DNA of 56,533 nucleotides from Iodidimonas nitroreducens. GTDB lineage: Bacteria > Pseudomonadota > Alphaproteobacteria > Sphingomonadales > Rhodothalassiaceae. The translations under genes and the position numbers were made by a program. The stretch is from contig BAYV01000023.1 in the NCBI GenBank assembly GCA_000710935.1, forward strand, positions 1 to 56,533, in the 5' to 3' direction. Positions 37,997 through 41,215 of this stretch are shown in pieces; the stretch's first letter is position 1, and each line of letters opens with the position of its first letter. A model generated the notes under the pieces. It had not been told where the DNA came from. It did not search any database and was given only the letters and a program-made list of their open reading frames with translations.

Positions 37997-39064
37997 CTAG
38001 ATCGTGCGCCCCGGGCCAATCACCGCTCCCGCGCCCATCAGGCCACGCAAAACCCCTTCACGAATGCCGCGATCCGCCACCCGCAGCCGTTTGAAGGACC
38101 ATTGCGCCAAAAGAGCATCGAGAATGGCACAGCCAGCCACCACATAATCCACCCGATCTTCGCCAATGCAGGGTTCAGCGAGCCGCGCTTCATAGGGCAT
38201 CAGGGCAATATTGCGGGCCAGATCATGGATGCTTGCCTGTTCGAGCCAGGCGCCATCCACCTTGTTGCGATCATAACGCGGCAGGCCCATTTGCACGCTG
38301 GCAAGGGTGGTGATCGTGCCCGATGTACCCAAAAGCTGCATCGCCCCGTTTTTTTGCAAAGTGCGCAAAGATGCCAAGGCTTCAAACCGATCGAGATGCG
38401 CGCGGATCAGCCCCACCATCTCAGCATAGCGGGCGCGATCAAGGGATTGGCAATCAAATCGCTCGGATAGATTGACAACGCCATAGGGCATCGAGGTCCA
38501 GGCCAGAATATGCAGGCGATTTTTCGGGCGACGCTCGACCAGAATAAGCTCGGTACTGCCGCCACCAATATCGAAAACAAGGGCATGGCCATAAGCCGGA
38601 TCGAGCAAAGACTGACAGCCGACAACCGCCAGACGCGCTTCTTCAGCCGGAGAAATGACATCGAGATTAAGCCCGGTTTCCGCCTTCACCCGCGCCACGA
38701 ATATGTCGCAATTCTTGGCAGTTCGGCAGGCTTCGGTGGCAACCGACCGCATGCAGGTCACCTGCTTGTGGCGGATTTTCTGGGCACAGATCTTGAGGGC
38801 GGCAATCGCCCTGTCCATTGCCTCATCCGACAAACGACCCGTGGCCCCCAGCCCTTCGCCCAGGCGGACGATCCGGGAAAAAGCATCCACCACGCGAAAG
38901 CCCGCATAAGTGGGGCGGGCTATCAAAAGCCTGCAATTATTGGTGCCCAGATCAATGGCGCTATAAACCGCCCGATTGCGGGCATAAGGCCCGGTCCGGC
39001 TCTTGGCAGGTTCATCCTTTGCAGGAGATAGCTTCGCTATACCCTCATCCTGTGCGCTCGACAT
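37997..39064 (-). CDS. ppx: Ppx/GppA family exopolyphosphatase
   Basis: The 355-residue product belongs to the ASKHA-fold Ppx/GppA phosphatases, which hydrolyse polyphosphate or pppGpp. Motifs are AIDLGTNNCRLLIARP (phosphate 1), RSVATEACRTAKN, the catalytic Glu region ISPAEEARLAV, VFDIGGGSTELIL (phosphate 2) and LGTSGTITTLASV. It is the short form, without the C-terminal HD-like domain, so which substrate it prefers cannot be decided. It heads the ppx-rlmE pair. Confidence 0.88.
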   Translation of the reverse strand: MSSAQDEGIAKLSPAKDEPAKSRTGPYARNRAVYSAIDLGTNNCRLLIARPTYAGFRVVDAFSRIVRLGEGLGATGRLSDEAMDRAIAALKICAQKIRHKQVTCMRSVATEACRTAKNCDIFVARVKAETGLNLDVISPAEEARLAVVGCQSLLDPAYGHALVFDIGGGSTELILVERRPKNRLHILAWTSMPYGVVNLSERFDCQSLDRARYAEMVGLIRAHLDRFEALASLRTLQKNGAMQLLGTSGTITTLASVQMGLPRYDRNKVDGAWLEQASIHDLARNIALMPYEARLAEPCIGEDRVDYVVAGCAILDALLAQWSFKRLRVADRGIREGVLRGLMGAGAVIGPGRTI

Positions 39065-39252
39065 AAAAACAGATACTCATCAAAAACGAACGGCGCTTTT
39101 TAAAGCCCGATCGAAACTTGATCCCTGTTTAGCATCATATTGCCTTTATCTTCCAGCCTGAGATTACGCACGAACGGACCAAAAAGTTTTTTGCACGTTA
39201 TCGGCGCATCATGCATATGCTATAAAGGCATGAGGGGCGCTTCAGGAAGGCG

Positions 39253-39282
39253 TTGACAAAGAGGCGGATGCCGCCTTATAAG
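39253..39282 (+). promoter_or_regulatory. Promoter of tRNA-Gln
   Basis: A consensus TTGACA (39253-39258) and TTATAA/TATAAG (39276-39282) are separated by 17-18 bp, about 20 bp before the tRNA gene. It is the best sigma70-type match I noticed in the window. Confidence 0.8.
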
Positions 39283-39300
39283 CCGCCACATTCTCATGAT

Positions 39301-39374
39301 TGCCCCGTCGTCTAATGGTAGGACAACGGATTCTGATTCCGTCAGTGGAGGTTCGAGTCCTCCCGGGGCATCCA
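39301..39374 (+). tRNA. tRNA-Gln (anticodon CTG)
   Basis: The cloverleaf is complete. Acceptor TGCCCCG pairs with CGGGGCA (39364-39370). The anticodon stem ACGGA/TCCGT closes the loop TTCTGAT, with anticodon CTG at 39333-39335. The T arm is GGAGG-TTCGAGT-CCTCC, and the 3' CCA is encoded (39372-39374). It reads CAG codons. Confidence 0.97.
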
Positions 39375-39454
39375 CATCTTCCCCCATCCATAATCCCAAA
39401 CTTTCATGAACTGATCAGCACCCTGCCCTGATCAGGGGCAATTCATAGTCTTAT

Positions 39455-39469
39455 GTTCCATTTTTGTTC
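39455..39469. promoter_or_regulatory. LexA (SOS) box 1
   Basis: GTTC-CATTTTT-GTTC is an exact match to the alphaproteobacterial LexA site GTTC-N7-GTTC. It directly adjoins the -35 element of the small-protein promoter. Confidence 0.85.
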
Positions 39470-39498
39470 TTGCCATAAGAAAAATAAGCGATTAAAAG
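39470..39498 (+). promoter_or_regulatory. Promoter of the small SOS-controlled gene
   Basis: TTGCCA (39470-39475) and TAAAAG (39493-39498) are exactly 17 bp apart. The two LexA boxes sit immediately on each side, the second overlapping the end of the -10 box. Transcription should begin near 39505, leaving a leader of about 18 nt with the ribosome site AGGAGA. Confidence 0.65.
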
Positions 39499-39512
39499 AA
39501 CAAATATTGAAC
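39498..39512. promoter_or_regulatory. LexA (SOS) box 2
   Basis: GAAC-AAATATT-GAAC is the reverse complement of GTTC-N7-GTTC, again an exact match. It covers the -10 box and the expected transcription start, ending 10 bp before the first ATG. Confidence 0.85.
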
Positions 39513-39522
39513 ATAGGAGATC

Positions 39523-39720
39523 ATGACCATGCTGATCCATCTTTTGGGGCTCGCCATTTTCGCCATCATGGGCCTTTGTGCTCTGAGCGGTTTGCGCGAT
39601 GCCGCCCGGCTTTTTGCAAAGCGCCTGCCCATGCGGCAAGGAAATATCCATGCAACCAAGCCCCAATGGCATCGGCGGGCGGATCACCCGGCTATCAAGG
39701 GCTATCATCAAAGGGCCTAA
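39523..39720 (+). CDS. Small single-helix membrane protein under LexA control, family not recognised
   Basis: The 65-residue product (63 if the second ATG at 39529 is used) has one strong membrane helix near the N-terminus (LIHLLGLAIFAIMGLCALSG, about residues 4-23). The basic tail carries many Arg, Lys and His residues (DAARLFAKRLPMRQG and onward), so the tail is predicted to be cytoplasmic. AGGAGA lies 2 nt before the first ATG and 8 nt before the second, favouring the second. Twin LexA boxes around its promoter point to induction by DNA damage. Small SOS-induced membrane proteins such as Caulobacter SidA block cell division; the resemblance here is in size, topology and control, not in recognised homology. 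Its stop overlaps the stop of the convergent SPOR gene. Confidence 0.65.
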   Translation: MTMLIHLLGLAIFAIMGLCALSGLRDAARLFAKRLPMRQGNIHATKPQWHRRADHPAIKGYHQRA

Positions 39721-40508
39721 AGCGGTTCGCCATCAAAATTGGAAAGCTGGCAAAAAGCCCCGCTTTCACGCAATGACGAACATAAAACCCGAGCCGGGGC
39801 GATCTCTTTGAAAGGGCCTGCAACCAGACGATAAAAGCGGCCGCCCATCTGCTCTAAATCCAGCACCGAAAGCCGGGGAGACAGGCCTGATAAAAGGGCC
39901 GGGTATTTGTTTGAAAGATCGGCCCAGCCTTCGCTGGCAGCCTTTGCATCGCGATAGGATGCCAGATGCACGGCATAAAGCTGGCCGGTGCCCACCGCCA
40001 GATCCACCCCATCCGCGCGCGCTTTTTCAGCTTCCGCACGATTGGCGGCATTGCGGATCTCATTATCTTTGGCGATTTGTGCCTCAAGGCTTTTTTCCAC
40101 CTCGGCCAGCCGGATGATCAGGCTATTCATCAGGCCGGTTTGTTCTGCCAATTGCGCCTGCAGATCATCGATCCGGGCGAGCAGGCCCCTCTGATCGGCT
40201 TTCAATTGGGCGATGTCTTCAGCCGGAACTGCTTCCGATCCACCCAGCCTTTGATTGATATCGCGTAAGGCCGCATCAAAAGACATCAGCCTTTGCCCGG
40301 GCTGTGTGCCACCCTGCCCGCCTTGATCAGCGCTAATTCCAGCAGCATCGACAGCCTGATCAGCAGCCAGATTGGGGCGATACAGGCCAATCTGATCATC
40401 GGTGACACGCATGCTATCGGTGGCGCAGCCCGCCAGAAAAAACACGAGACAACAAACCGCGCCAAATCCCCTTGACTTGATCCCACTAGTTCCTATGCCA
40501 TGATCCAT
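39717..40508 (-). CDS. SPOR-domain lipoprotein
   Basis: The 263-residue product begins with a lipoprotein signal (GAVCCLVFFLAGC, lipidated Cys near residue 28), followed by a polar linker and a coiled coil (DIAQLKADQRGLLARIDDLQ and onward). The C-terminal SPOR-like domain is GQLYAVHLASYRDAKAASEG to FYRLVAGPFKEIAPARVLCS. SPOR domains bind denuded peptidoglycan glycans, typically at the division site, so a role at the envelope or septum is likely. The ATG at 40508 puts the signal at the N-terminus; an ATG nine codons earlier is possible. Confidence 0.8.
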   Translation of the reverse strand: MDHGIGTSGIKSRGFGAVCCLVFFLAGCATDSMRVTDDQIGLYRPNLAADQAVDAAGISADQGGQGGTQPGQRLMSFDAALRDINQRLGGSEAVPAEDIAQLKADQRGLLARIDDLQAQLAEQTGLMNSLIIRLAEVEKSLEAQIAKDNEIRNAANRAEAEKARADGVDLAVGTGQLYAVHLASYRDAKAASEGWADLSNKYPALLSGLSPRLSVLDLEQMGGRFYRLVAGPFKEIAPARVLCSSLRESGAFCQLSNFDGEPL

Positions 40509-40678
40509 GAAAAGGCCCGATCCATTGCAAAACATTCATATCAAAAGGCTTAACAGAAATTTCTTGCCTGTTCGTAAAATCTTTAAAAAAGGGGCCTGCG
40601 TATTAGGTTTGCATCAAGAGACACAAAGCATTATATCGTACTGATAGTATTTTCTTAGATGGTTCGGGGTTTATTTAT

Positions 40679-41215
40679 ATGGATGTTCGCACGCTTTGTC
40701 TTGGCATCCTCGCTTTAGGCGATGCCAGCGGTTATGAAATCAAAAAAATGGTGGCCGAAGGCAGCTTCAGCTTTTTTAGCGAGGCGAGCTATGGATCGAT
40801 CTATCCATCGCTGACCCGCCTGACCGAAGAAGGCTTTGTGACCTGCGAATTTTTTTCACAAGATAAACGCCCCGACAAAAAAATCTACAGCCTCACGGAA
40901 AAAGGCCGCCTGGCGCTGACCGAAGAATTGCGTCGCGACCCCGGACCTGACAAAAATCGGTCCGAATTTCTGGCTGCCCTGCTTTTTGCCGAGGCCGTAT
41001 CTCCTGATCGAATTCAGAACCTGGTGGAAGAACGGATTGATGAACACCGCATGAAAATCCGTTCCTTGCAAAAATTGCTTGATGAAGCCATGTCGCCGGC
41101 TTCACATTTTGTGATCAATTATGGCATTGCCATGCAAAAGGCGGCCCTCGATTATCTGGAACATCATCAGGCCAGCCTGATCAAAAAAATCATAGCAGCC
41201 GGGCCAACCGAATGA
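40679..41215 (+). CDS. PadR-family transcriptional regulator
   Basis: The 178-residue product has the PadR winged helix (LCLGILALGDASGYEIKKMV, SYGSIYPSLTRLTEEGFV, DKKIYSLTEKGRLAL), followed by a C-terminal helical dimerisation domain. PadR proteins are usually repressors relieved by small aromatic or drug-like ligands. It lies directly upstream of an RND adaptor and pump on the same strand, which makes those genes its likely target. The upstream region contains TATC-N5-GATA (near 40633-40645), a possible but weak operator. The ATG has no strong ribosome site. Confidence 0.88.
   Translation: MDVRTLCLGILALGDASGYEIKKMVAEGSFSFFSEASYGSIYPSLTRLTEEGFVTCEFFSQDKRPDKKIYSLTEKGRLALTEELRRDPGPDKNRSEFLAALLFAEAVSPDRIQNLVEERIDEHRMKIRSLQKLLDEAMSPASHFVINYGIAMQKAALDYLEHHQASLIKKIIAAGPTE

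Follow-up and report, generated by a model that had tools for sequence, protein, structure and literature searches.

Predicted LexA control of a conserved family of small single-helix membrane proteins, candidate inhibitors of cell division, in the order that includes Kordiimonas

In the window, by which we mean the whole 56,533-nt stretch of Iodidimonas nitroreducens DNA analysed here, a short gene for a predicted membrane protein lies between a tRNA gene and a convergent SPOR-domain gene, and its promoter is bracketed by two LexA boxes. The features are given below, where f1, f2 and so on denote families of the order, and where promoter counts refer to the 51 of 62 family members that fit a simple pattern, a −35 element starting right after a GTTC (the other 11 promoters were inspected individually).

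37997–39064, minus strand: Ppx/GppA phosphatase gene, divergent; also a neighbour in f1 and f5 and in several genomes of f2 and f7
39301–39374, plus strand: tRNA-Gln (CTG) gene, just upstream of the small gene, as it is in some genomes of f1, f2 and f7
39455–39469, plus strand: LexA box 1, GTTC-N7-GTTC, an exact match; exact in 32/51 orthologous promoters
39470–39475, plus strand: −35 element TTGCCA, read from the sequence; TTGAC at the same place in 46/51 promoters
39493–39498, plus strand: putative −10 element TAAAAG after a 17-bp spacer, placed by geometry
39498–39512, minus strand: LexA box 2, GTTC-N7-GTTC, an exact match; exact in 47/51 promoters
39515–39519, plus strand: AGGAG ribosome site, read from the sequence
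39523–39720, plus strand: gene for a 65-residue single-helix membrane protein, stop included; based on the open reading frame, profile matches, a predicted helix at residues 2–34 and purifying selection in the family
39717–40535, minus strand: SPOR-domain gene, convergent, with a lipoprotein-like N-terminus by eye; overlaps the small gene by 4 nt (39717–39720)

The two exact GTTC-N7-GTTC sites, which the earlier note had placed on opposite strands around a promoter with a 17-bp spacer, were verified in both coordinates and sequence. The −35 element directly adjoins box 1, and box 2 begins with the base that ends the −10 element. If the transcription start is assumed to lie 36 nt downstream of the first T in the −35 element, the leader is 17 nt long and carries AGGAG ahead of the ATG at 39523, in agreement with the earlier description of a small gene just downstream of the predicted start with a ribosome site; translation could also begin at a second ATG, at 39529. 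Judged against the consensus, the promoter is weak, and a generic promoter scan listed no sigma-70-like site in 39000–40000. These two are the only exact GTTC-N7-GTTC sites in the window. Chance would give 0.90, and two or more appeared in 24 of 100 shuffles of the window, so the number of boxes by itself is no proof.

In the genome from which the window comes, a single gene matches the LexA DNA-binding family. This lexA gene carries the box GTTCCATCTTAGTTC, the end of which lies 12 nt before the first ATG, and LexA boxes are also found 28 nt ahead of a Y-family polymerase gene and 27 nt ahead of a radical-SAM gene (L068; one exact box), while recA has two boxes with one mismatch each. Boxes at these four genes make it very likely, as judged from sequence, that LexA of the host organism recognises GTTC-N7-GTTC. 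Genome-wide there are 62 exact sites as compared to 108 for the backward control, and single boxes are not enriched; we inspected 46 of the 62, many of which lie inside long frames and resemble chance occurrences. A single box therefore means little, and support comes from context instead.

The pairing of the boxes, unlike their number, is the unusual feature. Of 396 genomes of the order, 42 have the twin arrangement and 2 have its backward control, and 36 of these 42 genomes show a short single-helix frame as the next gene. By eye, the other six comprise uvrA (L104, G014), an integrase-like gene (L105, G177) and four chance-like sites in f6. A profile of 34 positions, A3, was built from 36 members and run against 61 genomes, which yielded 24 new short, start-anchored members outside the profile (E 3e-9 to 0.1). 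These formed a blind test for the promoter. All 24 have, within 110 nt, a LexA box that departs from the pattern by no more than one mismatch, and it is exact in 22, the exceptions being G085 and G108, the latter with unread bases in the box. The chance level is 0.0047 per 110 bp, or 0.5% for each member, given that 70,339 bp of flanking DNA from the same loci contain 3 exact boxes. In the DNA read for two weak A3 matches (G050:C1 and G004:C1), no exact box is present.

A further search was anchored on Ppx and covered 12 of the 21 genomes that were memberless at that stage (nine f8 genomes were left out), with Ppx found at E<=1e-40 in nine. Four of these nine loci (G012, G030, G034, G037) combine an exact box and TTGAC with an adjoining single-helix frame; these four members are not blind for the box, since the box led to the frame. 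The Ppx loci of G004, G006, G008 and G018 do not show this combination, and the contig of G014 stops at that point.

Overall, 66 of the 83 sampled genomes of the order outside f6 carry a LexA-box promoter followed by a short gene for a single helix, with no copy found in 17; together with the blind test, this largely bears out the earlier proposal that orthologues should keep the box upstream. The tally by family is 5/7 in f1, 7/8 in f2, 0/1 in f3, 4/4 in f4, 26/29 in f5 (which includes Kordiimonas), 1/2 in f7 and 23/32 in f8, and the three f5 genomes without the gene also have no Ppx match at 1e-40. The earlier note had named absence from close relatives as a refuting outcome: gene and box are kept in four of the six other genomes of the same family (G001, G002, G003, G005), but no copy was detected in G004 (100% complete) or G006 (89%). 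No convincing member was found among 60 f6 genomes, eight of which had a match at E<=0.1, one of them in a 48-codon frame (E 0.055). Across 387 genomes of the class, A3 matches at E<0.01, the window itself aside, fell only inside frames of at least 307 codons, and eight shorter frames (33–136 codons, two with an internal stop) matched at E 0.01–0.05. By sequence comparison, this is a conserved gene family in the order including Kordiimonas.

The promoter architecture recurs with the gene. Boxes with at most one mismatch lie on both sides of the promoter in 56 of 62 members and on one side only in six (G062, G056, G041, G025, G050, G020); an exact box is present on at least one side in 60 of 62. 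The best spacer is 17 in 39 of the 51 pattern-fitting promoters, and a loose motif resembling a ribosome-binding site was found in 58 of 62 leaders.

Double LexA boxes are familiar from colicins, and the twin arrangement is also found at other genes in the present data. Among the 80 twin-box loci listed (L110–L189, mostly Acetobacteraceae), at least 67 give a match to the radical-SAM protein from the genome of the window, a radical-SAM-type gene starts within 700 nt after the twin boxes on the same strand in at least 63, and the small gene is seen by eye in at least 8. The idea that twin boxes are specific to the small gene is ruled out by these radical-SAM loci.

The most hydrophobic stretch of the window protein spans residues 3–21, and the remainder has a net charge of +8. 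Structure prediction gives a single helix at residues 2–34, followed by a low-confidence tail. Among 36 members for which charge was measured, the C-terminal part is positive in 34 and the N-terminus in none, so the positive-inside rule would place the tail in the cytoplasm and a very short N-terminus outside. Members range from 32 to 93 residues (n=62); they share the first 32–34 residues, while the tail is variable and mostly basic. The earlier description of one helix with a basic tail holds for the window protein, but the tail does not define the family. Three natural members are only 32 (G068, G108) or 34 (G092) residues long and have almost no tail, so the basic tail is dispensable and was rejected as the functional part.

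Conservation within the helix is loose, with no invariant residue in the family. The residues most often kept are H6 (42/61), L10 (44/62), F13 (34/62), G23 (36/62, with A in 18) and D26 (42/62), and a permutation analysis for one conserved helix face was negative (p 0.71). Within the same genus, identity over the first ~34 residues is 33–34%, as compared to 70–71% for Ppx, which indicates that the small protein evolves fast. In six pairs with at least 76% identity, dN/dS (NG86) ranged from 0.10 to 0.48 (0.048/0.215, 0.014/0.149, 0.054/0.370, 0.098/0.241, 0.042/0.330 and 0.107/0.221), these being ratios for short genes, taken without a significance test. Such values indicate that the family is under purifying selection and that the gene encodes a real protein.

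The product had been called unrecognised, and it remains so. The window protein gave no match at E up to 1 against the Pfam, NCBIfam, PADLOC and PHROGs profiles, and profile A3 gave no match against the PDB. When 20 members were run against the same four libraries, only single-member matches were obtained, the best at 0.082 in Pfam and 0.13 in NCBIfam, with none in PADLOC; two unnamed PHROGs were matched by one member each (E 0.0027 and 0.0064). A literature search joining Kordiimonas and LexA found no paper, and titles and abstract openings revealed no such protein in this order, subscription papers lying mostly outside the search. An SOS promoter and one membrane helix are both present, by sequence and prediction, and the proteins would thus make up a new family of an already known functional kind, the SOS-induced small single-helix membrane proteins. 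The earlier proposal of a new LexA-controlled regulator is partly upheld, as regards predicted LexA control, a conserved real gene, kept boxes and the lack of a named family, and it is corrected in that the twin boxes are not peculiar to this gene.

Small membrane proteins that are induced by SOS or damage and block division late include SidA, DidA, YneA, SosA and ChiZ, as described in PMC13396833 and PMC4211646. SidA of Caulobacter crescentus, reported to have 29 aa and to act on FtsW (PMC4211646), is likened to the present family by description: it is an alphaproteobacterial, LexA-controlled small inner-membrane protein, and the conserved core here, ~32–34 residues, is of similar size. However, ~97% of SOS promoters in Caulobacter are reported to carry a single LexA box (PMC12700426), whereas most members here have two, and by contrast with those promoters the double LexA clamp suggests that leaky expression is costly. 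Caulobacter DidA (71 aa) is described as a small single-helix membrane protein and damage-induced division inhibitor that acts on FtsN, with a two-hybrid signal that weakens when FtsN lacks its SPOR domain (PMC4211646); its induction is reported to be independent of SOS, in contrast to the LexA boxes found here. YneA, ChiZ and SosA are likewise described as small membrane proteins that are induced by damage and believed to act at a late stage of division, but YneA and ChiZ have an extracellular LysM domain according to PMC13396833, whereas only a very short N-terminus is predicted to lie outside in the present family.

Inhibition of late division is the most likely function of the window protein, and we assign a probability of about 0.55 to its being a DNA-damage-inducible, SidA-like small inner-membrane protein of this kind. 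RecA-triggered self-cleavage of LexA lifts LexA repression. LexA dimers would flank the core promoter and keep it shut, the first lying against the −35 element and the second covering the start and the end of the −10 element; self-cleavage of LexA after damage would then free the promoter of the small gene. The short leader with its ribosome site would allow immediate translation of the single-helix protein, a step that is partly supported. The conserved helix (H6, L10, F13, G17, G23, D26) may dock on a membrane partner of late division, as SidA does on FtsW, and the docked helix would delay septation until LexA recovers. The negative helix-face result, the loose conservation and the genomes outside f6 that have no copy are points against this reading.

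The helix might instead be an SOS-induced regulator of another membrane enzyme or of the envelope, acting for example on the SPOR neighbour or a transporter rather than on division, and we consider this unlikely, if worth weighing. Many single-helix small proteins tune membrane enzymes, and several lineages retain a SPOR gene close by. The earlier note had pointed to the convergent SPOR-domain neighbour, which is seen in the window and lies close by in most lineages checked. Ppx together with a convergent SPOR gene is found in all five f1 loci, in G007 (f2) and in G012 (f7), while in f5 Ppx is present in 26/26 and SPOR in 25/26, one contig ending there. SPOR genes were detected downstream by tblastn in six f8 loci and by Pfam in three more f8 loci, two f4 loci (G015, G026) and the f7 locus, and all six loci tested passed the Pfam SPOR cut-off. 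The tRNA-Gln gene directly precedes the small gene in G000, G001, G002, G005, G020, G041, G025, G012 and G037. However, the neighbours differ by lineage. No Ppx was found near the small gene in f8 and f4 loci, where those read have chorismate mutase-like frames (tested with Pfam in one locus) followed by the SPOR gene; PadR is the neighbour in two f2 genomes; and in the DNA read from G020, G041, G025 and G009 no SPOR gene was seen next to the small gene. One fixed neighbour is thus an improbable target, since neighbours change between lineages. The SPOR gene, which is inherited together with the small gene, is also weak evidence for a role in division.

The helix could also be a DinQ/TisB-like membrane toxin, which on SOS induction would lower the membrane potential and lead to dormancy, not to division arrest. 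E. coli dinQ, by analogy the best counter-example to a division inhibitor, is described as encoding a 27-residue single-helix peptide behind a promoter that overlaps two LexA operators, and the peptide is reported to depolarise the membrane and leave filamentation unaltered (PMC3567139). The tight control here would fit toxicity, and so would the loose conservation of the family. In the same source, however, antisense RNAs that target the leaders repress both dinQ and tisB, and the reading frame of dinQ is placed, by prediction, 139 nt downstream of the operator. The leaders here are 6–35 nt with a median of 18 (61/62 members in which the −35 could be placed, start sites being assumed), so that an antisense scheme acting on the leader has little room; they are not long leaders of the dinQ type. 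Among known RNA families in Rfam only tRNA reached the gathering score in 38900–40700, a scan that an antisense RNA of a new family would escape. Purifying selection and the kept polar residues H6 and D26 suggest a protein partner. On balance, a toxin appears rather improbable.

That chance boxes merely precede a spurious frame, a view to which the lack of enrichment of single boxes in the genome and the frequency of two boxes in shuffles of the window would lend support, is ruled out for practical purposes by the recurrence of the twin pattern across the order in excess of its backward control, the blind test, dN/dS and synteny.

If the protein is a late division inhibitor, it could also serve most of the order outside f6, the largest sampled family, as the principal SOS checkpoint on division: a helix of ~32 residues, with LexA on both sides of its promoter, would halt septation and do the job of SidA or SulA. 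This wider proposal is tentative, and we put its odds somewhat short of even. Should it be true, Kordiimonas and its relatives would have a gene for SOS-linked control of division, a family without a named relative would join the single-helix SOS inhibitors, and the members of 32–34 residues would offer natural minimal versions for studying the way in which helices of this kind halt the division machinery. Its promoter, with twin operators, would serve as a natural model of double LexA repression.

Elsewhere in the genomes, several other LexA boxes were observed. One lies 52 nt ahead of a ribonucleotide reductase-like gene, as recognised by eye (L061, G000 contig C97:79529), and another, on a 7.6-kb contig, stands between a cytosine-methyltransferase-like gene (by eye) and another long gene (L041, G000 contig C79:4188). 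The mraZ gene heads the division and cell-wall cluster, and exact LexA boxes were found 250–330 nt upstream of the mraZ DxKGR motif in 5 of 13 genomes of the order, at varying position and strand (L039:1044–1058, which is G000 contig C68:58843, and L304, L309, L308 and L312; the motif was not located in G007, one of the 13). Binding of LexA in vitro ahead of an mraZ homologue from gut metagenomes is described in PMC3998124.
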